DNA from: Bacteroidales bacterium
GTDB lineage: Bacteria > Bacteroidota > Bacteroidia > Bacteroidales > G3-4614
Reading direction: 5' to 3'
DNA: 41,743 nucleotides
NCBI GenBank assembly: GCA_017935575.1
Contig: JAGBHI010000078.1
Location: 1 to 41,743, forward strand
The position numbers were made by a program, and so were the translations under genes. Numbering within the stretch: the first letter of the stretch is position 1; each line of letters opens with the position of its first letter. The notes under the pieces are model-generated. The model was given only the letters and a program-made list of their open reading frames with translations. It was not told the origin of the DNA and ran no database searches. Below, one piece after another: positions 2,287 through 19,091 of the stretch.

Positions 2287-2294
2287 TATCTTTG
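2287..2294 (+). promoter_or_regulatory. -7 promoter element for the AbiE operon
   Basis: TATCTTTG matches TAnnTTTG exactly and predicts a transcript start near 2301. This lies downstream of the TTG at 2292 that would give a longer open frame, so the first usable start is the ATG at 2328. Confidence 0.55.
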
Positions 2295-2327
2295 TGTTTG
2301 AAAAATCATCAAAATTTCAAAGGTTGT

Positions 2328-2810
2328 ATGACTAATAAATATTCAATAGACGGTACAACTCTTAGGCAACGCATAGAAGCGATTCCGGAGGATTGTATAC
2401 TGTTTCGGTCAGACTTTCCTGAATACCATACGGAATTTGTAGGAAGCATTTTGTCTGAGTTAACTACAGAAGGTGTACTTGTTAAAATTGCACATGGGAT
2501 ATATGCCAAGCCAAGAAAAAGCCGATTCGGTGTTGTACTTCCTTCTGTAGATAAGGTCGTACAAGCAATTGCTGTTCGGGATAACGCAGAGGTGTTGCCA
2601 TCAGGTATGACAGCATTGAATGCATTAGGGTTATCAACTCAAGTACCGATGAATTACACATACTTAACTACCGGAAGTGAAAGAACTGTAAACCTATCCA
2701 ATAGAAAAGTCGTGTTAAAGCGAGGTGTGCCCAAGAATTTCTGTTATGGTACTCGCCTCGTCTCTTTACTTGTTCAGGCTCTTAAAACCCTTAAAAAAGA
2801 GAATGTATGA
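2328..2810 (+). CDS. AbiEi-type (DUF6088-like) antitoxin, cut short by an in-frame TGA
   Basis: A 160-residue product with the layout of type IV AbiEi antitoxins: an N-terminal winged-helix-like part (about residues 1-75, with the ILSELTTEGVLVKIAHGIYA wing) and a C-terminal part with the family segment LPSGMTALNALGLSTQVP. The antitoxin normally counters the AbiEii nucleotidyltransferase toxin and represses its own operon. The ATG at 2328 is chosen because the promoter start falls after the upstream TTG. The frame ends at TGA (2808-2810), yet the same frame continues open for 41 more codons that look like the missing C terminus, so the gene appears to carry a nonsense mutation. The toxin gene follows. 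Family identification rests on remembered similarity. Confidence 0.75.
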   Translation: MTNKYSIDGTTLRQRIEAIPEDCILFRSDFPEYHTEFVGSILSELTTEGVLVKIAHGIYAKPRKSRFGVVLPSVDKVVQAIAVRDNAEVLPSGMTALNALGLSTQVPMNYTYLTTGSERTVNLSNRKVVLKRGVPKNFCYGTRLVSLLVQALKTLKKENV

Positions 2811-2936
2811 GAAGAAGAACTAAATATAATTCTACAATTGGTATCGAATGAAACTGACAAGGAGACACTTGCTAAAGATGTAGATATGATGCCTGCGTGG
2901 ATGAAACGAATTATAAAACCAATGCTAACCGTTTAA
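2811..2936 (+). pseudogene. Detached C-terminal tail of the AbiEi antitoxin gene
   Basis: Directly after the TGA at 2808-2810, in the same frame, 41 sense codons run to TAA at 2934-2936. They read EEELNIILQLV, then a charged helix, then DMMPAWMKRIIKPMLTV, the kind of ending expected for DUF6088/AbiEi proteins. No strong start lies inside. The tail would be made only by stop readthrough, or if the TGA is a sequencing error. Confidence 0.7.
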
Positions 2937-2950
2937 AATAGAATTAGATT

Positions 2951-3970
2951 GTGGGAAAACTGTGGTTAAACAATGAGATAGTGGACCGTTTAGCTATGTT
3001 GCAGCAAACGGAGGCTGAACACCCTGGCGTTAATCAAATTGCCATAGAAAAGGACTGGTGGGTAACTGTTACGCTAAAGGCATTATTTCAAACAGATTGC
3101 TGTGATTCTTTAATATTCAAAGGCGGAACATCGTTGTCAAAAGGTTTTAGCATCATAGAGCGTTTTTCTGAAGACATTGACTTGGCAATCACTCATTCAT
3201 TCTTTGGTATTGAAAAGACTGGTAAAAGTCAGCGTGAAAAATTACGCAAAACGGCACGAGCATATATCCATGAGACCCTTTCCATTCAATTAGATGCTCG
3301 ATTGAAAGGAATGGGAATCTCGGGTTACACTATAGAAAATGTATCTCAAGTCCAAGATAAAGATGGAGAATGGCGACCGATAGATTCAGACAAAGATCCT
3401 ACGGTAATTCTATTACACTACTCGTCAATTCTTGAAGATACGATAAATTATATTCCTCCACGTGTAAAGATTGAGATTAGTTGTCTTTCAATGGACGAAC
3501 CTACTGAATTGCGACCAATTCATTCCCTTATAGGTAAAAGTTTTGATGGCGAAGATACTGACGCAGAAAGTCTTGTTAGAACAGTAGTTCCTTCTCGCAC
3601 ATTCCTTGAAAAACTATTTCTTTTGGCTGAAGAATTTCAAAAAGAAAAACCAAGGAGCGTACGAATGTCACGACATCTGTATGACTTGGAAAAACTGATG
3701 GATACAGAGTATGGTAAAGAAGCGTTGTCTAATCGCAAACTTTATGATGCCATTGTTGAGCATCGTAAGGCTTATTATGCTTTGAAGTATGTAAACTATG
3801 ATTTACATTCCCCATCAACCATTAGCTTTACAATACCAGAATCGGTTATTGATGCGTGGCAAGATGACTATGCCGATATGAGACGATTTTTCATTTATGG
3901 AGAATCATTAGAGTTTGATGCACTTATGGAGAAAATGAGAGAGTTGCAAGAAAGAGTGAGGATTATGTAA
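2951..3970 (+). CDS. AbiEii-type nucleotidyltransferase toxin
   Basis: A 339-residue nucleotidyltransferase of the AbiEii family (type IV toxin-antitoxin, linked to abortive phage infection); relatives transfer nucleotides to tRNA acceptor ends. All four expected motifs are visible: FKGGTSLSK (residues 57-64), SEDIDLA (73-79, with the metal-binding Asp75 and Asp77), RVKIEIS (171-177), and the TFLEKL...RMSRHLYDLEKL block (217-249). The start is a GTG 14 bases after the end of the antitoxin tail, giving the usual KLWLN N terminus. The toxin looks complete although its antitoxin gene is interrupted. It is co-transcribed from the promoter at 2287, and a terminator follows. Confidence 0.88.
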   Translation: MGKLWLNNEIVDRLAMLQQTEAEHPGVNQIAIEKDWWVTVTLKALFQTDCCDSLIFKGGTSLSKGFSIIERFSEDIDLAITHSFFGIEKTGKSQREKLRKTARAYIHETLSIQLDARLKGMGISGYTIENVSQVQDKDGEWRPIDSDKDPTVILLHYSSILEDTINYIPPRVKIEISCLSMDEPTELRPIHSLIGKSFDGEDTDAESLVRTVVPSRTFLEKLFLLAEEFQKEKPRSVRMSRHLYDLEKLMDTEYGKEALSNRKLYDAIVEHRKAYYALKYVNYDLHSPSTISFTIPESVIDAWQDDYADMRRFFIYGESLEFDALMEKMRELQERVRIM

Positions 3971-4136: not shown

Positions 4137-4144
4137 TATCTTTG
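4137..4144 (+). promoter_or_regulatory. -7 promoter element for the fucosidase gene
   Basis: TATCTTTG matches TAnnTTTG and predicts a transcript start near 4151, 46 bases before the ATG at 4197. No good -33 TTTG is seen. Confidence 0.55.
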
Positions 4145-4196: not shown

Positions 4197-6164
4197 ATGT
4201 TGACTAAACACCACAATTTACTTACTTACTTACTTACTTACTGCGCGATATTAATTCCGATTAATGCTTTTGCTCAGACTCAGCAACGACGGGTAATAAA
4301 GTTGTATAAAAATTCAGGAATAGTTGAAACATTGCCTATTAGTTATTTAGATAGTATCGCTTTTGGATATGAAGATATTCCGCAAATTGATATAAATGGT
4401 TCATCAGAATCAGAAGATATTGAAGCATATAATAAGAGAATGCAATGGTGGAATGATGCTCGTTATGGAATGTTTATACATTATGGGCTATATTCTGTAC
4501 TTGGTGGTAAATATTATGGCGTTAATTTAAAAGGAGAAGAAGTTAAGTTTCAGAGTTATGGCAATAAAAATACAATTGGTGATGGAGTAACGAGAGGTAA
4601 TGGATCTGGAGCGGAGTGGATATTGGGAGAGGCAGGGATTCCTCGTTCGGAATATAAAAAATTCTTACCTCAATTTACAGGTACGGCGTGGAATCCTGAT
4701 TCTATTGCATTAATGGCATCAAAATGTGGTTTTAAGTATATAATAATAACTGTTAAACATCACGAGGGATTTTGTTTATGGGATAGCAATACAACAGATT
4801 TTGATATTGCGTCAACCCCAGCCGGAAAGTTATGGAATGGAGATATGATAAAACCTCTTGCAACTGCTGCTCGTAATGCTGGATTAAAATTTGGTATATA
4901 TATATCACATAGTTTGGATTGGATGCACGAAGGAGGATTAGGAAATATTCCCGAGATAGGAGGTCAGTATTCTTTAGAAAAAAAAAGAAATTATATGCAA
5001 ACTTATACCTATCCTATGCTTAAGGAAATTTTTACTCGTTATAGCCCAGATATTATATGGTGGGACGCTCCATATACAAATCCCTATGAAGAGTTTGCAA
5101 GCGGATGCTTAGATATTCTTAAAGAGTATGCTCCTTCTGATATAATACAAGATGATAGACTATCTTCTCTTGAAGCATATAGGGGAGACTATAAAACATT
5201 AGAACAGAGTATGAATGAAAATACAGCTGTACCCAATGCGGAATGGTGTATGTCGCTTAACTATACATGGGGATATAATCAATACGATGAATCGTATAAA
5301 GAATCAGGATTTATATTATGGAGTTTATTGAGGTGTACAAAAGTAGGAGTAAATCTTTTGATAAATATTGGGCCAAAGGGTGATGGCTCTGTTTTAGAGT
5401 CGCATTATGATATTATAAAACCTGCGGGAGTGTGGCTTCAAAAAAATGGAGATGGCGTATATAAGACAAGTCGTAGCCCATTTCAATATAATTTCCCATA
5501 TGGTCCGGTTACCTATTCTTCTAAAGGAAATGAAAAAGCATTATATTATAATATTTTTTATTGGGACGGTTCTGGTAAATTATATCTTCCTGGTATTATG
5601 AACTCACCTGAAGAGGTTGATTTGCAATTTACAGAGGATTCCGATTTAGAGTTTGAGGTAGAGAAAATTCCGGGAATAGGCTTGTGTTTAAAAGGCTTAC
5701 CTCATAATAAAATATCCGATATAGCTACTCAATTAAAGATATCATTTAAAAATCAACCTGAGTTGAGGGAAGGCATACCTGAAATAGAAAATAAAATATC
5801 TCTTACATCAATGGCTTTAAAACATCAGGGAGGAGAGATCACAATGTTTGATACATACCCGTCGTATAATTGGTATGGAGGAAAGGAAATAAGATATAAA
5901 ATTATAGTGCCCAAAGATGCTACATATAAAGTTGAAGGTTATTTATCGGCAGAAGATAGTGGAACTATAACATTTAATGTCTCTAATGGACAATCTTTTT
6001 CAGGCAATAATACACCAACAGGTGGTGCAGTAGGTCAAAATTTTAAATGGCAAGAATTAGGAACAATATCTTTAAAAGAGGGTGAATATGAGATTGTTGT
6101 AACTAGTAAACAAAATAGTTCATGGATTAAATTAAGAGAGTTCCTATTTACAAGAGTTGATTAG
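4197..6164 (+). CDS. Secreted GH29 alpha-L-fucosidase with C-terminal beta-sandwich module
   Basis: A 655-residue retaining alpha-L-fucosidase expected to release fucose from host or plant glycans outside the cytoplasm. Residues 1-26 form a signal peptide ending in AFA. A short segment (33-57, ending LDSIAF) resembles the small DSITF-type extension common at the start of Bacteroidales surface proteins. The GH29 catalytic domain spans about 80-440: MQWWNDARYGMFIHYGLYS, KHHEGFCLWD, the nucleophile block IIWWDAPY (Asp290), and LINIGPKGDG. The last 120 residues look like a carbohydrate-binding beta sandwich. Codons 8-15 are built from six TTAC repeats, so slippage would switch the gene off. No SusC/SusD pair lies nearby. 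It has its own promoter; wzz follows after 66 bases, also with its own promoter. Confidence 0.92.
   Translation: MLTKHHNLLTYLLTYCAILIPINAFAQTQQRRVIKLYKNSGIVETLPISYLDSIAFGYEDIPQIDINGSSESEDIEAYNKRMQWWNDARYGMFIHYGLYSVLGGKYYGVNLKGEEVKFQSYGNKNTIGDGVTRGNGSGAEWILGEAGIPRSEYKKFLPQFTGTAWNPDSIALMASKCGFKYIIITVKHHEGFCLWDSNTTDFDIASTPAGKLWNGDMIKPLATAARNAGLKFGIYISHSLDWMHEGGLGNIPEIGGQYSLEKKRNYMQTYTYPMLKEIFTRYSPDIIWWDAPYTNPYEEFASGCLDILKEYAPSDIIQDDRLSSLEAYRGDYKTLEQSMNENTAVPNAEWCMSLNYTWGYNQYDESYKESGFILWSLLRCTKVGVNLLINIGPKGDGSVLESHYDIIKPAGVWLQKNGDGVYKTSRSPFQYNFPYGPVTYSSKGNEKALYYNIFYWDGSGKLYLPGIMNSPEEVDLQFTEDSDLEFEVEKIPGIGLCLKGLPHNKISDIATQLKISFKNQPELREGIPEIENKISLTSMALKHQGGEITMFDTYPSYNWYGGKEIRYKIIVPKDATYKVEGYLSAEDSGTITFNVSNGQSFSGNNTPTGGAVGQNFKWQELGTISLKEGEYEIVVTSKQNSSWIKLREFLFTRVD
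4218..4241 (+). repeat. Six TTAC tetranucleotide repeats in the fucosidase signal sequence
   Basis: Six perfect TTAC units begin seven codons after the ATG and encode LLTYLLTY. Tetranucleotide repeats inside codons are the classic substrate for slipped-strand phase variation. With five units the frame would hit TAA three codons past the tract; with seven it would hit TAA after eight. Only counts that differ by three keep the gene on. Confidence 0.9.
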
Positions 6165-6195: not shown

Positions 6196-6203
6196 TACCT
6201 TTG
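6196..6203 (+). promoter_or_regulatory. -7 promoter element for the polysaccharide locus (wzz)
   Basis: TACCTTTG matches TAnnTTTG, with predicted start near 6210 and a leader of about 20 bases containing three AATT units. This separates the polysaccharide locus from the fucosidase gene. Confidence 0.55.
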
Positions 6204-6230
6204 TATTGAATTAATTAATTGCAGTAAATT

Positions 6231-7364
6231 ATGAGCGAGAATATTGAAGACTCTAAAGAGAATAAGAAAGAAGATTCATTAGATTTAACGAAATATATAA
6301 AGCAACTTATCCCTTACCGCAAACAGATAATAAAGTTAGGTTGTGTGGTCTTTGTATTGTCGGTTGTGATTGCTCTATCAATGCCAAAACAATATACAGT
6401 AACACTAACATTAGCTCCCGAGGCAGGACAAAATGGAGAGGGAATGTTATCAGGTGTAGCCTCAATGCTTGGTGTAGGAGGTTTTAATGTAGGCGAAGAT
6501 GCCGATGCACTAACAGCACAACTCTATCCAAATATAGTTGCCTCTACACCATTCTTGGTTGATATGCTTGATACTCGAGTAAGAACAGCCAACGGAAAGA
6601 TGGATACAACACTTCAAGCCTATATAATAAGTCAATTTACATTTCTTCAAAAAGTAAAGGGCTTGCCATACAGAGCCAAAAAAATGATAACAGATATGTT
6701 TAAGGATCCTATAGTTTTAGGGGAAGGAGGTAAAACAACATATCTGACTGAGGAAAAAAACGGGCTTGTCTCTATTTTGAGAGAGTGTTTTGAGGTGGCA
6801 GTTGATAAAAAAACAAGTGTCTCAACAATAATGGTAACTTTTAATGATCAGATGGTAACAGCAATGGTTGCTGATACTTTAATAGAAAAATTACAGGAGA
6901 AGATTACCGAATACCGATTGGCAAAAGCTATTGATGATTGTCGCTATTGGGAGGAGATATATAAAGAGAGTAAGGAGGACTATTTTAACAAACAAAACGA
7001 GTATGCCCGATATGTAGATACCAATAAAAATATAGTATTACAGAGTGTAAAGGCAGAAGAAGAACGTTTGGAGAACGAGGCTCTTTTGGCATATCAAATA
7101 TATAGCAATGTTGCAACTCAACTACAAATGGCAAGAGCAAAGATACAAGAAGCAAAACCCGCTTTTGTAGTAGTACAGCCATCAATTTTCCCATACGAAG
7201 CATCAGGGACAAGTAAAACAACTACAGTATTGGTTTTAACTTTCTTGGGAGTTGCTCTTATAATTGCATGGTATCTCTTTGGCAAGGAGTATTGGATAAT
7301 TGCAAAAAACAAATTTAAAGAATTTAAAACCAACACAAAAGAGATTAATTCAACCAATTCATAA
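6231..7364 (+). CDS. wzz: Wzz-family polysaccharide chain-length determinant
   Basis: A 377-residue inner-membrane polysaccharide co-polymerase that sets chain length together with a Wzy polymerase. It has the standard plan: a short charged cytoplasmic N terminus, a first membrane segment at about residues 33-50, a Wzz domain beginning PKQYTVTLTLAP, a long periplasmic helical part (about 210-310, rich in Glu, Lys and Gln) and a second membrane segment at about 328-347 ahead of a short basic tail. No tyrosine-kinase domain is fused, so it is a Wzz and not a Wzc. The ATG fits the promoter at 6196. A strong terminator right after it may limit readthrough into the rest of the cluster. Confidence 0.88.
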   Translation: MSENIEDSKENKKEDSLDLTKYIKQLIPYRKQIIKLGCVVFVLSVVIALSMPKQYTVTLTLAPEAGQNGEGMLSGVASMLGVGGFNVGEDADALTAQLYPNIVASTPFLVDMLDTRVRTANGKMDTTLQAYIISQFTFLQKVKGLPYRAKKMITDMFKDPIVLGEGGKTTYLTEEKNGLVSILRECFEVAVDKKTSVSTIMVTFNDQMVTAMVADTLIEKLQEKITEYRLAKAIDDCRYWEEIYKESKEDYFNKQNEYARYVDTNKNIVLQSVKAEEERLENEALLAYQIYSNVATQLQMARAKIQEAKPAFVVVQPSIFPYEASGTSKTTTVLVLTFLGVALIIAWYLFGKEYWIIAKNKFKEFKTNTKEINSTNS

Positions 7365-7370
7365 GTTATA

Positions 7371-7408
7371 AAAAATAGAGAAAGACACCTCTTTCTCTAT
7401 TTTTTTTG
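7371..7408 (+). terminator. Strong terminator after wzz
   Basis: AATAGAGAAAGA at 7374-7385 pairs with TCTTTCTCTATT at 7390-7401 around a CACC loop, and flanking A and T runs extend the stem. T residues run through 7407. It would end much of the wzz transcript before the downstream genes. Confidence 0.85.
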
Positions 7409-7450
7409 AAAATATATCTTTATAATTACAATAAATGTAATATTTGTTAC

Positions 7451-7480
7451 GTTAACCTTGAAAAGGTTAACATTTTTTTT
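7451..7480 (+). terminator. Second terminator-like hairpin, in the leader of the polymerase gene
   Basis: GTTAACCTT (7451-7459) pairs perfectly with AAGGTTAAC (7463-7471) across a GAA loop, followed by A and eight T. It ends 12 bases before the ATG at 7493. A near-match to the -7 element, AATATTTG at 7439-7446, lies just before it, so the hairpin may act as a leader attenuator. Confidence 0.7.
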
Positions 7481-7492
7481 GAATAGAGAATT

Positions 7493-8830
7493 ATGTTTTT
7501 ATTTCTGTTGTTAGCACTTCTGTGGTTTAAAAAAGGGAAAAAAGAGTTATCTCTTATTACCTTTTTTGCCTTCCTTACAGGAGGCTTTCAACTAATCCCC
7601 GATGTAGTTTTTGCTTGGCCTGTTTCAATAAAACCAACCGATTATGCAATACTCTATCTCTTTGGAGTTATAGTAATGGAGTATTTTTCTGGAAAGCGAA
7701 AAGAACTCATAGAGGTACTACCTAAATTTACACTCATATTTCTTTTATTTATAGGATTTTCAGCAGGAATAAGTATTTTTATACACCATATTCCAATAGT
7801 AGAGGTCGTGAAAAATACACGAGAATACTTTTTGTTGTTAACGCCAATCCTATATTATACACTAACAAAAGATGAACTACAAGGAGTTTTTAAAACTCTA
7901 TTTAGAATAACAATATCCTTGAGTATTCTTTATACTTTACAACCAATCTTGGATATCCCAATAATGCAAGGATATTATACTGAGGGAAAAACCGAACTTT
8001 TTGGAATGTTTAAAGTAGCACGTTTCTATAATACTCCCACATATCTTTACATATTCTTCTTTTATGTGCTTTATAATTCCGATTTTAGTTTAAAAACCAA
8101 GCTATTATATAGCTCTATAATGTTACTGCCTATACTTTTGTGTATGCATCGAAGCCTTTTAATGGCAATAGTCGCGATAATTCTATTTAATCATTTTAAG
8201 GAGAAAATAAAAAAAATATATCCTATACTCATTGTATTGTTTGTTGCATTAATTCCATTCTTAGGTACAATACAGGGTAATATTCTTGATACCAAAATAG
8301 CACAAGATATTATAGGCTCGGTTGATATTGAACCTGAAGATTTTGTACCTGGAGAGCTTGGAGAAGCTACATTTACATTTAGAGTATTGCACTTTTTAGA
8401 GCGCTTATATTATGCGTCAGAAAGTTGGGTAACAATGCTCTTTGGTTTGGGATTTATGTCTGAGGGATCTGATTATACAATGAACAGCTTTGATTTTATA
8501 GTTGGGCTTGAAAACGAGGATACAGGTTTTGTAAATCAGGTTGACACATCAGATATAGCGTGGTCTATATTTGTAATACGATTTGGTATAATAGGAACAA
8601 TTCTATACTTGATATATTATTTTACTTTAATAAACTTCTTTAATAAAAAATACAAAGCTGAAACACTTGCAAAGGTCGCATTTTCAGTATTGGGTGTAAT
8701 CTTTATAACCTCATTTACAAGTGTGCAAATAGTAAGTATGGAGTTTATCTCTCTTATCTTGCTTGTGTATGTTTTGTTGAAGAAAAAAGAGATAGAAGAT
8801 GTTTCAAGGGAGGGGTGCTTAAATAGTTAA
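7493..8830 (+). CDS. Wzy-like polysaccharide polymerase / O-antigen ligase-type membrane protein
   Basis: A 445-residue integral membrane protein with about ten to twelve hydrophobic segments spread over the whole length and one larger hydrophilic loop (about residues 265-345, with DIEPEDFVPGE and the GLGFMSEGSDYT stretch). This is the plan of Wzy polymerases and WaaL ligases, where the large periplasmic loop carries the active site. Primary sequence in this family is poorly conserved, so the call rests on topology and on position between wzz and the wzx flippase. A Wzy that joins repeat units under control of the neighbouring Wzz is the likely role. No Shine-Dalgarno is visible. Confidence 0.75.
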   Translation: MFLFLLLALLWFKKGKKELSLITFFAFLTGGFQLIPDVVFAWPVSIKPTDYAILYLFGVIVMEYFSGKRKELIEVLPKFTLIFLLFIGFSAGISIFIHHIPIVEVVKNTREYFLLLTPILYYTLTKDELQGVFKTLFRITISLSILYTLQPILDIPIMQGYYTEGKTELFGMFKVARFYNTPTYLYIFFFYVLYNSDFSLKTKLLYSSIMLLPILLCMHRSLLMAIVAIILFNHFKEKIKKIYPILIVLFVALIPFLGTIQGNILDTKIAQDIIGSVDIEPEDFVPGELGEATFTFRVLHFLERLYYASESWVTMLFGLGFMSEGSDYTMNSFDFIVGLENEDTGFVNQVDTSDIAWSIFVIRFGIIGTILYLIYYFTLINFFNKKYKAETLAKVAFSVLGVIFITSFTSVQIVSMEFISLILLVYVLLKKKEIEDVSREGCLNS

Positions 8831-8835
8831 TAGAT

Positions 8836-10365
8836 ATGACACAAAAGAACGTATTGATAAAAAATTCAACATTTGGCATAATTCAATTTGTAGCAGTTGC
8901 CATATTAACCTTTTTGTGTGTTCCCATATTTATAGGGAAATTAGGAGTTGATGCGTATGGTGTTTTTGCTCTTGTGTCGATACTCGGAAACTTAAACTTC
9001 TTCTCCTCATTCGGTTTAAATAGTGCATTGTTGGTCTTTTTGTCAAAACAAGGTAAAACAGAAGAGTCGCAACGCGATATAGTAGTAGTTCTATTCTCTA
9101 CAATAGTAATAGCCCTATTTCTATGCTCTTTACTATATATATTTAAAACGTCTATAATAGAGAATATATTTGGAGTTCCACAGGAGTTTGTCCAATCATC
9201 AAGCTGTTTGTATGATTATCTGTTATTGGCAAATTTATTATTGATAGTAGGTCAGGTTGCTGTGTCAATAGTAGATGCATTGCAAAAGATATATATATCA
9301 AACGTGATACAATTTGTTTATAATTTAATATATTGGGTTGGGTTAATTGTTGTAGTTCTTGCAGGTGGCAGCTTAGCAGAAGTAGGAATACCTCTATTGA
9401 TTTCAGCCTTAGTTTGGTTTATATTAATATTTTGGAAGGCGCGTTCGTTCTGGGGCAGTTTTAAATTAACTCAACCCATACGCCCCCACCTAAAAAGAAT
9501 GATTGTTAAGCAGTTCTCTTATGGTGCAAAAATATTTACTGCAGGTTTTTGTGGATTCTTTTTAGAACCTCTATCAAAAATATTGGTATCAAAATTTGTG
9601 GGAATAGATTTAGTTGCCTTTTATGATATTGCACTACGCATAAAGCATCAGGTTGCAGGATTATTCCAAAAAGCAGCATATCCACTTTTCCCCTATATAT
9701 CAGAACAACCTAAGTCATCTCAATTAAATGATAAGATAACTGATATGAGTAAAAAAATACAACTGTCGGTAGTTTCTTTATCAATGTTTATGTTATTTAC
9801 ATTTCCTATATTGGTTAAACTTTGGTTAGGAGAAGATTATACAACAATAACATTGATATATATATTGGCTATAACCATATCATATATTCTATTTTCACCA
9901 CCTATTTTGCCCATTTACTACTATTTGCAATCAAAAAATATGGCAGATAGAAATATATATATGCACTTAGGTGCAGTAATAGTAAATATTGTAGTTTTTT
10001 TTGTCGTATATAAATATATAGGAGTTTATGCAATATTGATATCAAATACAATATCTATATTTTTTACCTATCTATTGGGCATTTATTATATGAAAAAGTA
10101 TAATGATTTAAAAGTTCTATCACTATTAAAATATTATATAACAATACTTTTATGGGTTGTAATCTCCGGAGGTATCTGTTATGTGTTAAAATGCTATATT
10201 GTTCCGGAAACGATATTTGATGTACTGCTCTATCCTTTGGTAATAATATTAATTTTAGTTATCTTTACAAAAATAGGATATTTAATAAATAAATCAGATA
10301 TTGATAGATATTTGGGAACAATGCCCAAAGTAAAAAATATGGCAATAAAACTTTTGATAAAGTAG
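8836..10365 (+). CDS. Wzx-type lipid-linked oligosaccharide flippase
   Basis: A 509-residue membrane protein of the polysaccharide transport (MOP/MATE) family with about twelve to fourteen membrane segments. The N terminus, IKNSTFGIIQFVAVAILTF followed by GVDAYGVFALV, is characteristic of these flippases, which move undecaprenyl-linked repeat units to the outer face of the inner membrane. It starts five bases after the polymerase stop and is followed six bases later by a GT2 gene, so it is within one transcription unit. Substrate cannot be read from sequence. Confidence 0.88.
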   Translation: MTQKNVLIKNSTFGIIQFVAVAILTFLCVPIFIGKLGVDAYGVFALVSILGNLNFFSSFGLNSALLVFLSKQGKTEESQRDIVVVLFSTIVIALFLCSLLYIFKTSIIENIFGVPQEFVQSSSCLYDYLLLANLLLIVGQVAVSIVDALQKIYISNVIQFVYNLIYWVGLIVVVLAGGSLAEVGIPLLISALVWFILIFWKARSFWGSFKLTQPIRPHLKRMIVKQFSYGAKIFTAGFCGFFLEPLSKILVSKFVGIDLVAFYDIALRIKHQVAGLFQKAAYPLFPYISEQPKSSQLNDKITDMSKKIQLSVVSLSMFMLFTFPILVKLWLGEDYTTITLIYILAITISYILFSPPILPIYYYLQSKNMADRNIYMHLGAVIVNIVVFFVVYKYIGVYAILISNTISIFFTYLLGIYYMKKYNDLKVLSLLKYYITILLWVVISGGICYVLKCYIVPETIFDVLLYPLVIILILVIFTKIGYLINKSDIDRYLGTMPKVKNMAIKLLIK

Positions 10366-10371
10366 GAATAT

Positions 10372-11157
10372 ATGGATAAAGAGGATATATTGGTAACCAT
10401 TGTAACCCCCTCATATAATCAAGGACAATTTATTGAGGATACAATTACAAGTGTACTTAATCAAACATATAAGAATATACAATATATTGTAGTTGATGGA
10501 GCCTCAACAGATAATACAATGGAGGTTGTTGAGCGTTATCGCGATAAGATTGATATTGTAATTAGCGAACGCGATAAAGGACAAACTGATGCAATAAATA
10601 AAGGATTCAAATTGGCAAAAGGAGAGTTGGTGGGTTGGATAAACTCTGACGATATGCTCTATCCATATTGTGTTGAGGAGATAGTAAAACTATATAAACA
10701 GAATTCGGAAGGAGCCATATATTATGGTTCAACAATAGATGTAATTGATGCAAAAAACAATCATCTAAAATATTACATAAATAATATGGGTAGCAGACAG
10801 AGACTGCTTTGTGAAAATTATGATGTTTCTCAACCCGGCTCTTTTTATCGAAAAGATATACTTGAGAAAATTGATTATTTAGATGAGAGTATATTCTATT
10901 GTATGGATTTGGATCTCTTTCTAAAACTCTTAAAACATGGAAATCTATATTCAATTGATGATAAACCATTGGCAAAATTCAGAAAATGGGAAGAGGCAAA
11001 ATCTGCAACGGGAAGAACAAAATTTATTAAGAATATAAGAGAAAGATTATATATTCATGGTGCAAAATTTTATAATAAAACAATACTCACCACATATTAT
11101 TGGCAGATAAGATTTGCTCTTACTGATATTGTAAAAACAATATTTAGAATAAAGTAG
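10372..11157 (+). CDS. Family 2 glycosyltransferase (GT-A fold)
   Basis: A 261-residue cytoplasmic transferase. The N-terminal nucleotide-sugar fold is clear: VTIVTPSYNQGQFIEDTI (residues 8-25), VDGASTDNT (41-49), then DKGQTDAINKGF and the metal-binding NSDD at 91-94. There is no membrane anchor apart from a weakly hydrophobic C-terminal stretch. It should add one sugar to the growing lipid-linked repeat unit; donor and acceptor are not predictable. Gene spacing of two bases to the next gene supports an operon. Confidence 0.9.
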   Translation: MDKEDILVTIVTPSYNQGQFIEDTITSVLNQTYKNIQYIVVDGASTDNTMEVVERYRDKIDIVISERDKGQTDAINKGFKLAKGELVGWINSDDMLYPYCVEEIVKLYKQNSEGAIYYGSTIDVIDAKNNHLKYYINNMGSRQRLLCENYDVSQPGSFYRKDILEKIDYLDESIFYCMDLDLFLKLLKHGNLYSIDDKPLAKFRKWEEAKSATGRTKFIKNIRERLYIHGAKFYNKTILTTYYWQIRFALTDIVKTIFRIK

Positions 11158-11159
11158 AT

Positions 11160-12218
11160 ATGAAAATTGTTCACATAGTATATAGTTTGGAGTTTGGAGG
11201 AATTGAAACTATGCTTGTTAATATTGTAAATGAGCAAATTTCAATGGGACATGATATAGGTATAATATGCATAAATAATGCAATTAATAGTGGATTAAGA
11301 GAAGCTATTGATAAAAAAGTAAAACTATATTGTATAGGACGTCCTATAGGATCTAAAAACCCTTATTATTTGCTAAAATTCAATTATAAATTATATAGTT
11401 TAAAATCTGACATCATACATGTTCATTCTCCATCTATAACGCGTTATATACTTTTTAATTTATTGAAAGGTAAAATGTGTACAACTCGTCATGCTCCACA
11501 CAATCCAATAGAAAGTAATTATTTACCATATTTTAAGTATATATATTCAATATCCAATTCTGTCAGAGAAGATGAAATAAAGAATATGAATATTGATTCT
11601 AAAGTGATATTAAATGGAGTAAATGTTTCAAATATAAAATCAAAAATAAATCTTAGTGAATTTAACGCACCTTTAAAATTAATACAAGTAAGTAGAATCA
11701 ATCATCTTATAAAAGGGCAACATATCTTAATTCAAGCGATAAAGATAGTGAAAGAGGGAGGATATAACATTTCAGTAGATTTTATTGGAGATGGACCATC
11801 GTTTGATTATTTAACTGAACAGATAAAAAAGTTGGGATTAGAGAATGAAGTTAAACTTTTAGGTGCAAAATCACAACAATATATTTTTGAGCATCTTTGT
11901 GAATATGATTTGTTTGTTCAACCATCAATTTATGAGGGTTTTGGGCTTACGGTAGCTGAGGCAATGGCTGCAAAAATTCCGGTATTGGTATCAGAAAATC
12001 AAGGACCATTGGAGATAATTGATAATGGTAAATATGGTTACTCTTTTAAAAATGGCGATGCAAACGATTGTGCCGATAAAATTATAAATATTATAGAGCA
12101 GGGAGTTGATTTAGATATGATTAATGCTGCATATAAACGAGTAGAGGAACTTTACTCGGTACAGCAAACCGCAAGAAATTATATAAATGAGTATAAGTTG
12201 ATACTTGAAAATAGATAA
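11160..12218 (+). CDS. Family 4 glycosyltransferase (GT-B fold)
   Basis: A 352-residue retaining glycosyltransferase. The N-terminal domain opens with MKIVHIVYSLEFGGIETML, the GGIE-type acceptor loop of GT4 enzymes; the C-terminal donor-binding domain carries LIQVSRI...KGQHILIQAI and the EX7E motif as EGFGLTVAE (Glu259 and Glu267). It should act on the lipid-linked repeat unit. The stretch from here to 14528 looks even more AT-rich by eye than the flanking genes, which would fit an exchanged cassette; this was not measured. Confidence 0.9.
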   Translation: MKIVHIVYSLEFGGIETMLVNIVNEQISMGHDIGIICINNAINSGLREAIDKKVKLYCIGRPIGSKNPYYLLKFNYKLYSLKSDIIHVHSPSITRYILFNLLKGKMCTTRHAPHNPIESNYLPYFKYIYSISNSVREDEIKNMNIDSKVILNGVNVSNIKSKINLSEFNAPLKLIQVSRINHLIKGQHILIQAIKIVKEGGYNISVDFIGDGPSFDYLTEQIKKLGLENEVKLLGAKSQQYIFEHLCEYDLFVQPSIYEGFGLTVAEAMAAKIPVLVSENQGPLEIIDNGKYGYSFKNGDANDCADKIINIIEQGVDLDMINAAYKRVEELYSVQQTARNYINEYKLILENR

Positions 12219-12229
12219 GGTAGAAAAGA

Positions 12230-13420
12230 ATGCTTACGTTTAAAAATAAAATAGAGTTTAATTTTAATAAATGTAAACAATGTGGAGCTTGCAAGGCTAT
12301 ATGCCCTACAAATGCCATAAGTTTTTATCAAAGACAGGACGGATTGTTTAATGTTGAGGTAGATTATGAAAAGTGCATTAAATGTCGTAAATGCGAAAAG
12401 GATTGCCCTTCAAATAATGTGCAAATACCTCAAAATTATTTTGACGACTTTCCTAATAAAAGATATTATTTAGGATATAATTCAGATAATATAATTAGGC
12501 ATAATGCTTCTTCTGGTGGTGTTGCCAGAACTATAATTGTTGAAGCATTAAAGCATAAATATACGGGCGGAGTATATACTTTAGCAAAAAAAGTAGAATA
12601 TCCGTTTGCTGAAGGAAAATTTTACACGCTAAATAATATTCCTGAATATGATGATATCCCAAATTCTGTATATCATTCTGTGCCACTTTGTGAAAATTTG
12701 AACAATATAAAGGATTGTGATAGAATAATATTGGTTGGGACATCGTGTCAATTAAAAGCCTTATCTCCTATTGTAGAAAGAAAATGTAAAGATGTAATAA
12801 AGGTTTGTATATTTTGCAAACAACAAAAAAATTTGAATTCTACACGGTTTTTAACAAAAATTATGGATACGCAAATTCCTAAGAATCTAAAATTTAGTGT
12901 GAAATATAGAGGTGAGGGATGGCAAGGTGTAGTTGGCATTAACAATTCAAGAATAACATGGGAAGAAGCTGCTCAGATTCCTTTTGGTCGTAGAGTCTGG
13001 TCTGTCCCAGGCTGTAATATATGTGGAGATCCGTTTGCGATAGGAGTTAAAGCGGATATATCTTTAATGGATCCTTGGGAAATAAGAACTCCAAGTGATT
13101 TAGGCGAGACTTTAATTACTGTTCATTCTGAAAAAGGAGAAGCATTATTAAAATCATTATCTCCGGAATTAAAGTTTGTCGAAATTCCATATAATGAAGC
13201 GTTGCCAGCATTAGGTTTAAAAGATGTATGGCGAAGACAAAAATTAGTTCCATATTTTAAAGGAGAAAAAGTCTCTTTAAAAATCAAGATGGCAGGGATT
13301 GGAGAGAGAATACAAATATCAATTATAAAGAAAATTGTTACTATTCTCCCTAAAATGCCTATTTTTGTATATAGAGTAATTCGAAGAATTCCAGATTTAA
13401 GAAATCTTTTTATAGGATAA
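12230..13420 (+). CDS. Two-[4Fe-4S] ferredoxin / F420 dehydrogenase beta-like protein of polysaccharide loci
   Basis: A 396-residue protein with two N-terminal ferredoxin motifs, Cys15-18-21-25 and Cys49-52-55-59, each CxxCxxCxxxC. The body matches the coenzyme F420 hydrogenase/dehydrogenase beta-subunit domains (SSGGVARTIIVEAL, then VGTSCQLKAL, CIFCKQQKN, and ADISLMDPW). Proteins of this type recur in Bacteroidales capsule loci next to polysaccharide pyruvyl transferases; F420 is not expected in this phylum, so a flavin is the likelier cofactor. The next gene begins one base after its stop and is such a transferase. A redox step on a sugar or on the pyruvyl modification is inferred and not proven. 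Confidence 0.85.
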   Translation: MLTFKNKIEFNFNKCKQCGACKAICPTNAISFYQRQDGLFNVEVDYEKCIKCRKCEKDCPSNNVQIPQNYFDDFPNKRYYLGYNSDNIIRHNASSGGVARTIIVEALKHKYTGGVYTLAKKVEYPFAEGKFYTLNNIPEYDDIPNSVYHSVPLCENLNNIKDCDRIILVGTSCQLKALSPIVERKCKDVIKVCIFCKQQKNLNSTRFLTKIMDTQIPKNLKFSVKYRGEGWQGVVGINNSRITWEEAAQIPFGRRVWSVPGCNICGDPFAIGVKADISLMDPWEIRTPSDLGETLITVHSEKGEALLKSLSPELKFVEIPYNEALPALGLKDVWRRQKLVPYFKGEKVSLKIKMAGIGERIQISIIKKIVTILPKMPIFVYRVIRRIPDLRNLFIG

Positions 13421-13421
13421 T

Positions 13422-14528
13422 ATGAATATAAAAATAATAACACGTCATTTTCCTGCTAACTACGGATCTATATTACAGAGTATTGCTACTCAAAAAGCAA
13501 TAGAAAAGTTAGGACATAAGTCTCAAATTATAGATTATATTCCAAAAAATGAATATGGAGTTAGAGGAGTACTCTCTTTGTTAAAACAAAAAAAAGAGTG
13601 GAATAATAGTGCTTTAAAGAAGTTTTTATATGTGGTTCTAAGATCACCGGGAGATGTTATAGCAAATTTTAAGTTCTCGCGAATGAGAAAAAAGTATCTT
13701 GAATTAACTCCTCGTTATAATACAAAAGAGGAGTTGCGAGAAAATGTAGAACCTGCGGAGATTTATATGACTGGTAGTGATCAAGTTTGGGGCGAAATAG
13801 CTGGAGGTGGTTATGATTATTCATATCTATTGGATTTCATCTCTGAAAAATATCCTAAAGTTGCATATTCTGCGAGTTTTGGGAAAATAGATTTTTCTGA
13901 AGAGGTTTTGCTTCAATATAAAGAACTTTTATCTAAATATAAATATATTTCGTTGCGAGAGCTTGACGGAGTAAACATATTGAATCAAATGGGAATTCCT
14001 AATTTGGGGCAGGTATTAGATCCTGTATATATGTTTAATTCTGAATGGTGGAGTCGTTTTATTAAAAAAGAACGCACCGATAAATATGTATTAGTGTATC
14101 AGATTCATGCTAATAAAGATATTGAAGAGTATGCAAAGAAATTTGCAAAGGAAAAAGGGTTAAAACTTATACGTATATTCCCATTGTTACATCAAATTTT
14201 TAGAGGTGGCAGATTAGCATATTTGCCAAATATATCACAATTTTTATCGTATATTAAAAATGCTGAATACGTTGTTACTGATTCTTTTCATGGAACATCT
14301 TTTTCTTTAATTTTTAATACTCAATTTATAAATGTATTAGCTAAAGTAAATATAAATAGCAGAATATATAGTTTGTTAAAAATATTGGGAATTGAAGATA
14401 GAATTGTTACTGAAAAATTTGATTTTTCCATTGCAGATAGAAAAATAGAGTATAATGCTATTAATAAAAAGATCGATGACCTAAGAGAGAAATCATACTA
14501 TATATTAAAGACAATAATTGAGGAATAA
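13422..14528 (+). CDS. Polysaccharide pyruvyl transferase family protein
   Basis: A 368-residue cytoplasmic enzyme of the CsaB/WcaK superfamily. Seen are the N-terminal HFPANYGSILQSIATQKAI, the core TGSDQVWG, then YSASFGK, the ISLRELDGVNIL segment and the C-terminal VVTDSFHGTSFSLIF, where the DSFHG motif is diagnostic. Members add a ketal pyruvate from phosphoenolpyruvate to a sugar, though some homologues beside F420-like proteins may do other chemistry. It is coupled to the preceding gene by a one-base gap, so the two probably act as a pair on one repeat-unit sugar. Confidence 0.88.
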   Translation: MNIKIITRHFPANYGSILQSIATQKAIEKLGHKSQIIDYIPKNEYGVRGVLSLLKQKKEWNNSALKKFLYVVLRSPGDVIANFKFSRMRKKYLELTPRYNTKEELRENVEPAEIYMTGSDQVWGEIAGGGYDYSYLLDFISEKYPKVAYSASFGKIDFSEEVLLQYKELLSKYKYISLRELDGVNILNQMGIPNLGQVLDPVYMFNSEWWSRFIKKERTDKYVLVYQIHANKDIEEYAKKFAKEKGLKLIRIFPLLHQIFRGGRLAYLPNISQFLSYIKNAEYVVTDSFHGTSFSLIFNTQFINVLAKVNINSRIYSLLKILGIEDRIVTEKFDFSIADRKIEYNAINKKIDDLREKSYYILKTIIEE

Positions 14529-14531
14529 CAA

Positions 14532-14942
14532 ATGTTTAATAAAATTAAATTTATATCTATTTTATCATTATTAATTACCTTCTCTTGCTCAAAAGATGAT
14601 GAAGCAAAGTTAGAGGGGCGTTGGCAAGGCACTACTATAGAGTCGCCACGTCATAGCCTTCAATCAGATTCGCTGTTTTGGAGTTTTGATAGCGGAGTGT
14701 GTGAAATACAAACCTTACAAGCATCAAACTCCCATTATGCCGAGCAGATATATGCGAACTATCTTTTGGAAGAGAATTCAATAAAAATATCGGTTCCAAA
14801 TAAATATATTGATAAAGCATTGCAAAATAGATTTTTGGATTGGGACACCCCGGAACGTAAATTTGAAATAAGAGAGCTGACCTCTAAATCGTTAAGATTA
14901 TCGGTTAACGATACTATATATTCATTTCGTAAATATTATTGA
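14532..14942 (+). CDS. Small lipocalin-like lipoprotein
   Basis: A 136-residue exported protein with a type II signal peptide; the lipobox ITFSC places the lipidated Cys at residue 19. Directly after a short charged linker comes LEGRWQGTTIE, the GxW opening of lipocalin-like domains, and the rest is predicted beta-rich (KISVPNKYI, RLSVNDTIYSFR). It overlaps no conserved enzyme family. Its place just before wzi suggests a periplasmic or outer-membrane accessory in surface attachment of the polymer; that is inference from context. Its stop is a genuine TGA (14940-14942). Confidence 0.7.
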   Translation: MFNKIKFISILSLLITFSCSKDDEAKLEGRWQGTTIESPRHSLQSDSLFWSFDSGVCEIQTLQASNSHYAEQIYANYLLEENSIKISVPNKYIDKALQNRFLDWDTPERKFEIRELTSKSLRLSVNDTIYSFRKYY

Positions 14943-14944
14943 TT

Positions 14945-16411
14945 ATGAAGCGTATAATTTTATTAGTAATAATGGCGCTCGTGGTAATATTTACAGCGTC
15001 AGCAAAAGATTTTAACCTCTCATACAAAGCAGAGGCAAACATAATAAGCGGAGGAGGAGATTATACTCCATTTTGGTTAATGAACAACACTAATGGGGTG
15101 GTTTCTGATAAAAACAATAGCGGATATTTACGCTTAGGACTCTTTAAAGAGGAAGCAGAAGATAAGAAATTTTCATACTCTTTTGGCTTAGAGGTTGTGG
15201 GTGCATACCGAAACGAGGCTCCCATATATCTTCAACAAGCCTATTTTGATGCCAAGTTAAAGAATTGGAGCATATTTGCAGGGGCAAGAGAGGAGAAAAC
15301 AATGCTTTGGGATACAGAGTTGAGTAGTGGAGGTATGATAAATAGTGGTAATGCTCGCCCCATACCCCAAATATATATCGGGCTTCCGCAATTTACCAAA
15401 GTGCCGGGTACAAAGGGGTGGTTGCATGTACGTGGAGGTGTCTCGTATGGTTGGTTTGTTGACTATAAATATCAAAAAGATTTCAAGACGGAAGGTATGC
15501 AGTATAGTAAAAATGTACTATATCACCGAAAGAATTTGATATTTAAAATAGGAAATGAATTAAAACCTCTATATGGTATAATCGGTATTGATATGGCAAC
15601 TCAATTTGGCGGTACGGTGTATGATTACAGAGGTAATCAAACAGTAAAATTTCCGTCAGGAATAAAGGAGTATTTCAAAGTCTTTGTACCACTATCGGGC
15701 GGAGAAGATTCTCCCAATATTGACCAAGTAAATGTATCGGGTAACCATTTGGGTATATATATACTCTCTTTAGGCTACAAGAAAAATGGTTGTGATATAA
15801 AAGCCTACTATGAACACTTTTTTGATGACCACTCGGGCATGATATTCCGTAATAAATGCGATGGCCTTTGGGGATTATCGTTTAGAACAGACAAGAAATT
15901 CTTTATTGAAGGAGTTACCTTTGAAATCATGAATGCCACAAATCAAAGTGGACCATTTCTTTGGGATACAACATCAGAGATACCTGTCCAGGTTAGTGCC
16001 GGCGATAACTACTATGGGCATATAATGTATAATGGTTGGACACATCGCGGACATGCAATGGGAACACCTTTTATTACATCGCCTCTCTATAATAAAGATG
16101 GATATTTAGGCTTTACAAACAATATAACCCGAGCTTTTCACGGAGGTATTGATGGTACAATCATTGAAGGCTTAAAATATAAAGTTCTTGCATCGCATCA
16201 ACGAGGTTGGGGAACATCTTACGCTCCGTCAATAAATATTAAACATCAATTTTCTGCAATGTTGCAGTTAAACTATACTCACAATAAAACAAAAGGGTGG
16301 AACTTCTCCGTTGCAGGAGCATTTGATAAAGGTACGCTCTTTGGCGATAATTGGGGAGTACAAATTGGTGTACGTAAAAGTGGTGAATTGTTGAATTTAA
16401 GTAAAAAGTAA
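14945..16411 (+). CDS. Capsule assembly protein Wzi-like outer-membrane barrel
   Basis: A 488-residue exported beta-barrel. The ATG at 14945 is preferred over the in-frame TTG at 14939 because it gives a clean signal peptide ending in TASA (residues 1-20). The mature part begins FNLSYKAEANIISGGGDYTPFWL, with FWL..N repeated in the Wzi family of Bacteroidales, and alternates short hydrophobic strands with turns to the end. In enterobacteria Wzi is an outer-membrane lectin that anchors capsule; the same anchoring role is likely here. The stop overlaps the ATG of the next glycosyltransferase (TAATG). Confidence 0.85.
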   Translation: MKRIILLVIMALVVIFTASAKDFNLSYKAEANIISGGGDYTPFWLMNNTNGVVSDKNNSGYLRLGLFKEEAEDKKFSYSFGLEVVGAYRNEAPIYLQQAYFDAKLKNWSIFAGAREEKTMLWDTELSSGGMINSGNARPIPQIYIGLPQFTKVPGTKGWLHVRGGVSYGWFVDYKYQKDFKTEGMQYSKNVLYHRKNLIFKIGNELKPLYGIIGIDMATQFGGTVYDYRGNQTVKFPSGIKEYFKVFVPLSGGEDSPNIDQVNVSGNHLGIYILSLGYKKNGCDIKAYYEHFFDDHSGMIFRNKCDGLWGLSFRTDKKFFIEGVTFEIMNATNQSGPFLWDTTSEIPVQVSAGDNYYGHIMYNGWTHRGHAMGTPFITSPLYNKDGYLGFTNNITRAFHGGIDGTIIEGLKYKVLASHQRGWGTSYAPSINIKHQFSAMLQLNYTHNKTKGWNFSVAGAFDKGTLFGDNWGVQIGVRKSGELLNLSKK

Positions 16412-17478
16412 TGGATGTAATAATAGTATCACCATCGCTTGATACCACTCAAAATGTGAGTGGAATATCTTCTGTAACACAATTTATAATCAATAATAAC
16501 CCCACTCAAAACTATATCCATTTTGAACAGGGTAAAAAAGATAATGAGCCCGGGGGTATTCGTCGCGTATTTCCTTTAATTGCAAAGTTAAGAGAGTGGA
16601 AAAAGCTATTGGCAACATATCCTCAAGCAACTATTCATTACAATTTTCCGCTATCAAAGGCATCAATAATTCGCGATGTGCCATTTATTAAATATGCACA
16701 ACACGAAAACCGAAAAATAGTTATACACCTTCATGGCGGTGTATATCTTACCTCTGAAAAGATACCATCATATCTCAATACAATGCTTAAAATGGTCTTT
16801 AACGAGACAACACCCATCATAACATTGAGCGAAATGGAGCGTAGAGCAATAGTTGATCGTTATGCGTTAAAAAATATATCGGTTCTCCCTAATTGTGTTG
16901 ATATAAAGGATTATCCCATAAAAAGCGAGTGTAACAGTAAAAGAGAGCTGACATTAGGTTATATGGGTCGCATAACAAAAGAGAAGGGTATGGAGTATCT
17001 TCTAAAAGCGTGCAAGAGTTTAAAGAAAGATAGCATACCCTTTAAACTTATGTTAGCTGGTAAAGAGGATATCCAAGATGAGTATATACCTCGCTTTAAA
17101 GAGAGTTTGGCAGATGATTTTATATACACCGGAGTTGTATCGGGAGAGAAAAAAGATGAATTTATAAATAAATTAGATCTTTTTGTATTACCTTCGTTTT
17201 TTGAGGGGTTACCAATGTCGCTTTTAGAGTGTATGGCGCAAGGTGTTGTACCTATAACAACTGATGTAGGTTCAATATCAGATGTTGTGTCAGATGGAAC
17301 AAATGGAATATTTATAGCGGTAAAAGATTCTATCTCAATATACAATGCTGTATGTGAATTGGATAGAGATAGAGAAAAACTAAATAAATTTTCTCATGAG
17401 GCTTATAAAACAATAAAATTGAAGTTCTCGCCTGATGAGTATATAAAACAATTGAATAATATATATAATAAGGCATAA
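16411..17478 (+). CDS. Family 4 glycosyltransferase
   Basis: A 355-residue GT-B enzyme. It shows the opening IIVSPSLDTTQNVSGIS, an acceptor-side HLHGGVY segment, the donor domain start LGYMGRITKEKGMEYLLKA, and the EX7E motif as EGLPMSLLE (Glu265 and Glu273). It starts on the last base of the wzi stop codon, so translation is coupled, and is followed after one base by the WecG-type transferase. Together these late genes probably add the first sugars of the repeat unit on the lipid carrier. Sugar specificity is not readable. Confidence 0.9.
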   Translation: MDVIIVSPSLDTTQNVSGISSVTQFIINNNPTQNYIHFEQGKKDNEPGGIRRVFPLIAKLREWKKLLATYPQATIHYNFPLSKASIIRDVPFIKYAQHENRKIVIHLHGGVYLTSEKIPSYLNTMLKMVFNETTPIITLSEMERRAIVDRYALKNISVLPNCVDIKDYPIKSECNSKRELTLGYMGRITKEKGMEYLLKACKSLKKDSIPFKLMLAGKEDIQDEYIPRFKESLADDFIYTGVVSGEKKDEFINKLDLFVLPSFFEGLPMSLLECMAQGVVPITTDVGSISDVVSDGTNGIFIAVKDSISIYNAVCELDRDREKLNKFSHEAYKTIKLKFSPDEYIKQLNNIYNKA

Positions 17479-17479
17479 T

Positions 17480-18205
17480 ATGTTGCGATTAAAAGAGTTG
17501 AATATTGTTGAGAGCAGAGAGGTGTTGTCAGCTTTGCCCCAAGGAAAAAAGATGATAAACACTATTAATGCGCATAGCTATAATACTGCATTAAAGGATA
17601 CACTCTTTGCTGAAGCTCTTAAAAATTGCGATGCCTTAATTCCTGATGGGGCAAGCATTGTAAAGGCTTGTAAATTCTTAAAAGCAAAATCGCGTCCAAT
17701 TGAGCGTATAGCAGGTTGGGATTTGTTTATTCTTGAGATGGAGCGTTTGAGCAAAAACGGCGGAGGAGTCTGCTTTTTTATGGGAAGTACCAATGAGGTT
17801 TTGTCTTTAATAAAAGAACGTGCAGCTAAAGATTATCCAAATATCATAGTTAAAACCTATTCACCTCCCTATAAACCTCAATTTTCTGATGAGGATAACA
17901 AAGAGATTATATCTCAAATAAATCAGGCAAAGCCCGATCTTTTGTGGATTGGAATGACAGCACCCAAACAAGAGAAATGGGTATATGAGAATTGGGATAA
18001 ATTATATATCTCTTGCCATGTGGGAACAATAGGTGCGGTATTTGATTTTTATGCCGGAACAGTAAAACGCGCCCCTATTTGGTGGCAACGCCATAGCTTA
18101 GAGTGGTTATATCGTCTTTTAAAAGAACCAAAGCGTATGTGGAGACGATATATAATAGGGAATACACTATTTTTGTACAATATTTTACGAGAAAATAGAT
18201 ATTAA
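17480..18205 (+). CDS. WecG/TagA/CpsF family (GT26) glycosyltransferase
   Basis: A 241-residue GT26 enzyme. Family marks are INAHSYN (residues 29-35), IPDGASIVKA (54-63), FFMGSTNEV, GMTAPKQEKW and the C-terminal GAVFDFYAGTVKRAPIWWQR followed by a basic amphipathic membrane-binding tail. WecG and TagA add N-acetylmannosamine or its uronate as the second sugar on an undecaprenyl-linked N-acetylglucosamine. This points to an initiating enzyme encoded elsewhere, since none is in the cluster. It is the last gene before a 256-base gap. Confidence 0.92.
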   Translation: MLRLKELNIVESREVLSALPQGKKMINTINAHSYNTALKDTLFAEALKNCDALIPDGASIVKACKFLKAKSRPIERIAGWDLFILEMERLSKNGGGVCFFMGSTNEVLSLIKERAAKDYPNIIVKTYSPPYKPQFSDEDNKEIISQINQAKPDLLWIGMTAPKQEKWVYENWDKLYISCHVGTIGAVFDFYAGTVKRAPIWWQRHSLEWLYRLLKEPKRMWRRYIIGNTLFLYNILRENRY

Positions 18206-18316
18206 TTAACATTGCATAGAAGGCTAAGTATAAGAATGTTTGGTAGGTTATATCTACTTCTTTGAGAAAGATACTCAGAGCCCTTTTTAGTCTCTCTCTT
18301 TTCTTGTACGTTGCGA

Positions 18317-18426
18317 TTTATGGAAATAGATTAACAAAAATTAACTATTTTATGGAAGTAGAAAGTTAGATTTTTGCTTATTTATGGAAATAGATTAAGA
18401 AAAATTTGCTATTTTATGGAAATAGA
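18317..18426 (+). repeat. Tandem array: four TTTATGGAARTAGA motifs at exact 32-base period
   Basis: The 14-base motif starts at 18317, 18349, 18381 and 18413, exactly 32 bases apart. Copies 1 and 3 also share most of the following 18 bases, so the true unit may be 64 bases. Copies 2 and 4 sit in a partial palindrome (CTATTTTATGGAAATAG in copy 4). The array lies 36 bases before the acetyltransferase ATG and no gene overlaps it. The rest of 18206-18461 has no gene, no clear terminator and no exact -7 element; TATTTTAG at about 18429 is one mismatch away. Confidence 0.85.
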
Positions 18427-18461: not shown

Positions 18462-19091
18462 ATGGGATTAAAAGAAAAACTAAGGAATAACTTTATAATA
18501 AGAGGAGTATATTTTCTATTTCGCGATTATTTTTGGGACTGTCGCAGAAGTAGATTTGGCTATATAGCAGACGATGTAACATTGATGCCTCCTTTAAGAA
18601 TAAGTAATCCGGAGAATGTCTATATATATGAAGATAATTTTTTGCGTAATGCCGATATAATGGTAACAAACGCAAAATTTATAATGAATGCACATTGTAT
18701 GGCATCTGAAGGGTTGAGAGTTACAACCGGAAACCATGCAATGGTTTTAGGTCGTTTTTCATCAACAATTACTGAAGACGAAAAGCCTAAAGGATTAGAT
18801 AAAGATGTAGTTGTTGAATCAGATGTTTGGTTAGGACGTAATGTTACTATACTTTCGGGAGTAACAATTGGAAGAGGTGCTACAATAGGAGCATGTTCTT
18901 TGGTAAGTAAAGATATTCCACCATATTGTGTGGCAGTGGGAGTGCCTGCAAAGCCTATAAAATTTAAATGGACAATAGATGAGATTCTCTATCACGAAGA
19001 GCAACTATATCCCGAAACTGAAAGATACACACGTGAGCAACTTGAAAAGTTATTTGCTGACATTAAAGCAAAATATCCTAATATAAAATAG
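18462..19091 (+). CDS. Hexapeptide-repeat (left-handed beta-helix) acyltransferase
   Basis: A 209-residue trimeric acyltransferase of the LbH/WcaF-CatB type. Repeats with a Val/Ile every sixth residue are visible from about residue 40 and are clearest in VVVESDVWLGRNVTILSGVT and the following IGRGATIGACSLVSKDI. The TTGNHAM segment (about residues 87-93) offers the catalytic His, and VAVGVPAKPIKFKW is the usual exit. It likely O-acetylates a sugar of the neighbouring polysaccharide, probably with acetyl-CoA. It is set apart from the cluster by the 256-base gap with the 32-base repeat array, so it may be separately regulated. Confidence 0.88.
   Translation: MGLKEKLRNNFIIRGVYFLFRDYFWDCRRSRFGYIADDVTLMPPLRISNPENVYIYEDNFLRNADIMVTNAKFIMNAHCMASEGLRVTTGNHAMVLGRFSSTITEDEKPKGLDKDVVVESDVWLGRNVTILSGVTIGRGATIGACSLVSKDIPPYCVAVGVPAKPIKFKWTIDEILYHEEQLYPETERYTREQLEKLFADIKAKYPNIK

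Follow-up and report, generated by a model that had tools for sequence, protein, structure and literature searches.

The window analysed here (the whole stretch of 41,743 nucleotides) carries a gene for a GH29 alpha-L-fucosidase with a slippage-expanded TTAC microsatellite in its signal-peptide codons. The likeliest reading, which we hold with about even confidence, is that this tract makes the accessory fucosidase gene phase-variable, switching it on and off. Replication slippage would remove or add one TTAC, shifting the frame and bringing a stop after 17 to 23 residues (OFF), and a compensating change or a net three-unit change would bring back the full-length secreted enzyme (ON). LLTY repeats would be tolerable as a signal-peptide core, so that alleles of three, six and nine units should all work. 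We infer that the tract length varies in the population, reverts and is kept by selection. The source genome, which belongs to a gut bacterium, is of the Candidatus Caccoplasma type. The features concerned are:

4197 to 6164, plus strand: gene for the GH29 alpha-L-fucosidase (Pfam PF01120), 655 aa, with a signal peptide and an N-terminal IKLYK...DSIxF module
4197 to 4274, plus strand: signal peptide, MLTKHHNLLTYLLTYCAILIPINAFA, predicted by eye, ending at an AFA/Q site
4218 to 4242, plus strand: coding tetranucleotide tract, (TTAC)6 plus T, in the signal-peptide codons LLTYLLTY

The fucosidase assignment of the original prediction was supported by a match to Pfam PF01120 (E 5.5e-64, residues 74-419). 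Solved-structure matches comprised 48 chains, with alpha-L-fucosidases at the top, and D290 aligned with D224 of the T. maritima fucosidase 1hl8, which we take to be the catalytic nucleophile, indicating that D290 probably serves as the nucleophilic Asp here. The signal peptide showed an ordinary layout. The enzyme had been described as both secreted and located at the surface: secretion agrees with the predicted signal peptide, whereas the surface location is uncertain, because the signal peptide has a signal-peptidase-I-type AFA/Q end and lacks a canonical lipobox, whereas its relatives are of the lipoprotein type. Two more proteins of the source genome likewise start with a signal peptide and continue with an IKLYK...DSIxF-like module, and their codons are non-repetitive.

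Six perfect TTAC units were found at 4218-4241 (100% match), as had been claimed, and together with the first T of a seventh unit they form a run of 25 nt (4218-4242, 100% match). Translation from the ATG at 4197 (MLTKHHN-LLTYLLTY-CAILIPINAFA/QTQQ) puts the tract start at codon 8, seven codons past the ATG. The consequences of unit changes were simulated for 1 to 11 units, and the hand translation of the original prediction was reproduced. Five units gave a stop after 17 aa, with the TAA following Ala-Arg-Tyr three codons past the tract, and seven units ended after 23 aa. Only steps of three units kept the frame, with 3, 6 and 9 units giving 651, 655 and 659 aa, and all other counts (1, 2, 4, 5, 7, 8, 10 and 11) were OFF in silico, with stops within 13-27 residues. 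A change of unit number would therefore toggle the fucosidase between full length and an early stop, as expected of a contingency locus. No upstream start restored the frame after a change in unit count, and the sole alternative was a TTG in frame about 35 codons on, past the signal peptide, from which 620 residues can be read once the count has changed. If translation truly began behind the tract, for example at this TTG, the tract would be an untranslated leader and the frame would be unaffected. However, the frame from the ATG at 4197 gives a good signal peptide directly ahead of a module, and in two other proteins of the genome this module likewise comes after a signal peptide; a later start would strip the enzyme of its export signal. 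We regard a later start as very improbable.

The rarity of the tract was assessed against a background sample of 787 kb of stretches (39% of the genome), supplemented with whole-genome pattern searches, and chance was modelled with an order-3 Markov chain over 566 kb of the source genome. The model expected 8.1, 2.4, 0.9 and 0.3 tetranucleotide tracts of 12, 13, 14 and 15 nt, respectively, and none longer; the same 566 kb contained 5, 2, 0 and 0, plus the fucosidase tract of 25 nt. This tract was also the only tetranucleotide tract of at least 14 nt in the 787 kb. Within the first 120 nt of genes, the longest period-4 run measured 5-11 nt in 470 of 471 genes and 25 nt in the fucosidase. Given the peptide LLTYLLTY and the codon usage of the genome, the probability of the exact codons was 3.6e-5 (0.006 for a single LLTY unit). 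The fucosidase tract is thus an uninterrupted, non-triplet repeat inside a gene and beyond chance length, as in contingency loci, and it is a product of slippage, neither of chance nor of codon usage.

Three or more TTAC units occurred at two places only across eight genomes of the genus, namely the fucosidase and a (TTAC)5 tract in G004, which is intergenic and lies upstream of gyrA, a gyrase-like gene. The tract was absent from the alignable copy of this gyrA upstream region in G001, indicating that the length of tracts of this kind shifts within the genus. Elsewhere in the order, TTAC tracts of at least five units lay between genes, at the 3′ ends of genes or in a spurious ORF. A degenerate YWRA pattern was too loose to be informative, matching 322 of 393 genomes of the order, about the same as its reversed control.

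Slippage could also have acted without any switch. A chance TTAC duplication may have been expanded by slippage within the tolerant signal-peptide core of a recently acquired gene, in which case OFF alleles would be plain loss-of-function rather than an adaptive switch. This neutral explanation is a realistic possibility, to which we give somewhat over a third of our confidence. The tracts elsewhere in the order lie outside genuine 5′ coding ends, indicating that expansion occurs without a switch, and the signal peptides of the 3-, 6- and 9-unit alleles are alike in hydrophobicity (core hydropathy, 1.84-2.04). On the other hand, a 24-nt perfect non-triplet repeat at a coding 5′ end would be costly unless useful, and no other was present in the 471 genes.

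Relatives of the enzyme were then compared. The closest homologue found was from Bacteroides nordii (52%) and likewise lies within a polysaccharide locus; those of G003 and G007 (44 and 42%) lie at other sites of their genomes. All three homologues have lipoprotein-type, repeat-free signal peptides. Neither the genus nor a set of 393 genomes of the order yielded an orthologue carrying the tract, and no DNA-level orthologue or further copy of the fucosidase was found in genome contigs, viral contigs, plasmids or phages. The original prediction had named LLTY repeats in non-repetitive codons as evidence against itself; this objection falls away, since no related gene encodes LLTY repeats, and none confirms the tract either. 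The restriction of the gene to one species, and of the tract to this gene among its relatives, also fits neutral expansion.

The surroundings of the gene comprise the following features:

2292 to 3970, plus strand: pair of AbiEi (2292-2810) and AbiEii (2951-3970), directly upstream of the fucosidase
4137 to 4144, plus strand: TATCTTTG, ahead of the fucosidase, matching the Bacteroidales -7 box TAnnTTTG (motif only)
6197 to 6204, plus strand: TACCTTTG, -7-like box of wzz, common to G001 (TACCTTTG) and G006 (TATATTTG)
6231 to 18205, plus strand: polysaccharide locus with wzz, wzx, glycosyltransferases, a pyruvyl transferase and a WecG-type transferase

The predicted position beside a polysaccharide locus was borne out, with wzz to wecG lying downstream of the fucosidase. 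This locus largely recurs in the sister species G001 and G006 (common genes mostly 60-88% identical) without the fucosidase. There, a divergent hexapeptide acyltransferase gene precedes wzz, and the AbiEi/AbiEii pair is missing ahead of it. The next conserved gene leftward, a saccharopine dehydrogenase (675-1871), has different neighbours in all sister species. As judged from these sequence comparisons, the fucosidase is an accessory gene, a species-specific insertion with its own -7-like box. The fucosidase heads the cell's own polysaccharide locus and its closest relative found, that of B. nordii, lies within one, so a switch, if real, may govern how the cell trims its own polysaccharide and not how it forages on host mucin.

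A gene order unlike that of every sister species could also point to a wrong join of the fucosidase locus in the metagenome assembly, or the assembly could carry a wrong unit number, since the draft genome comprises 99 contigs and is 88.75% complete. However, the wzz promoter region behind the fucosidase matches the sister species. Moreover, a run of 25 nt fits within a single short read, which should make the count reliable, and six units is the in-frame count in a gene otherwise intact across 655 codons. An assembly artefact is therefore unlikely, with only a slim chance of accounting for the tract.

Two other forms of control were considered. A switch that acts on the entire polysaccharide operon through polarity is unlikely: wzz carries a -7-like motif of its own, which is also present in the sister species that have no fucosidase; a switch in the fucosidase should not silence the locus. 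For promoter inversion, inverted pairs near 4137 were weak or chance-like, the best being 22 nt with 77% complementarity. Repeats of other kinds were observed in and around the locus. A 32-bp unit in about 3.5 copies (71% matches) lies at 18316-18426 of the window, ahead of the gene for a hexapeptide transferase at 18462. In G006, the C-terminal part of a 445-aa polysaccharide-locus protein is partially duplicated in tandem (L220:10345-12269), and no such duplicate was seen in the window's copy.

A second coding repeat, (GT)7, was found in a hexapeptide acyltransferase gene of another polysaccharide locus of the source genome (L065:11595-12330, contig 34 of G000). The repeat ends the frame at 170 aa, and one extra unit would extend it to 246 aa. 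The syntenic orthologue in G006 (L197:8972-9709) is open and 88% identical, and its repeat region is 2 bp longer and broken by substitutions. The (GT)7 allele could be the OFF state of a switch, a gene killed by slippage or an assembly error. Under either of the first two readings, coding-repeat slippage would occur in this lineage and affect glycan genes. In the source genome, glycan genes thus seem to acquire OFF alleles by slippage. A long-kept switch at the GT site is disfavoured because the G006 repeat is interrupted. If expansion at the fucosidase were neutral, decay of an ordinary kind would explain the acyltransferase gene; that the second frameshifting repeat also sits in a glycan gene argues against this.

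The poly-G/C tracts of the genus were considered as the same mechanism and rejected, as those examined were intergenic. Runs of 9-11 recur in a GGGGGGGGGTAAA context (L135:1501-1509 in G002 and L142:1501-1510 in G005), with further runs across the genus in L137, L139, L141, L145, L148 and L151, and between orthologous copies of one run the length is 9 G in G002 versus 10 G in G005. A heptanucleotide tandem repeat, TTAGTTG (including rotations and complement), was also present in several genomes of the genus, mostly between genes (L161:5488-5514, L158:4800-4819, L083:10756-10775 and L219:7202-7225).

The on/off switch is the best-supported reading of these observations, and the neutral microsatellite is its main rival; the two differ on length variation and reversion in populations. 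The frame behaviour, the rarity of the tract, its outlier status at gene starts, its location in an accessory gene that heads a glycan locus and the (GT)7 frameshift speak for the switch. The tract also falls within the first 15 codons, where coding contingency tracts usually lie. Against it, microsatellites are otherwise scarce in the source genome, in contrast to Haemophilus or Neisseria, and the tract is not conserved, the signal peptides of the relatives being unrelated and non-repetitive. Six units is also short for a tetranucleotide contingency locus, so the switching rate may be low. The broader proposal that Candidatus Caccoplasma diversifies its surface glycans by frame slippage in short repeats (the TTAC fucosidase and the GT acyltransferase) is tentative, and we lean against it.

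Surface-glycan diversification in Bacteroidales is known mainly through DNA inversion. The polysaccharide and Sus loci of Bacteroides have invertible promoters, with on/off control of glycan genes by site-specific DNA inversion. The proposed switch would exert the same on/off glycan control in the same order, but around the promoter motif of the fucosidase only weak or chance-like inverted pairs were seen. A demonstrated SSR switch in Bacteroidales was not found in a literature search, a weak negative because subscription papers lay outside it. If real, the fucosidase switch would add microsatellite slippage to the means by which gut Bacteroidales vary their glycan biology.

In Haemophilus influenzae, contingency loci with coding tetranucleotide repeats, such as the lic genes and modA, vary among strains, and one survey counted 12-14 tracts per strain (PMC2651432). 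As in these genes, the fucosidase tract lies near the 5′ end of the frame and a unit change shifts the frame, and lic and modA act on cell-surface glycans, to which we liken the fucosidase. Unlike H. influenzae, the present host is a member of the Bacteroidales with one known tract, of six TTAC units and known here from a single sequence. The sialidase gene nanH3 of Gardnerella, as cited in PMC11868660, is reported to undergo slipped-strand mispairing. There, as here, the proposal is that slippage in a repeat turns on and off a secreted exoglycosidase whose target is the ends of glycans, though the phylum, enzyme and repeat differ. In Bacteroides fragilis, a frameshift was described in a polysaccharide-locus acetyltransferase, and the authors proposed slippage as a source of variation (PMC3090145). 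This case, also from the Bacteroidales, resembles the (GT)7 acyltransferase of the source genome, but the change there was a single C added to a stretch of four, not a long repeat, and the gene does not encode a fucosidase. Judged by its sequence features, the TTAC tract of the fucosidase is a candidate case of an already known type of switch, coding tetranucleotide slippage.
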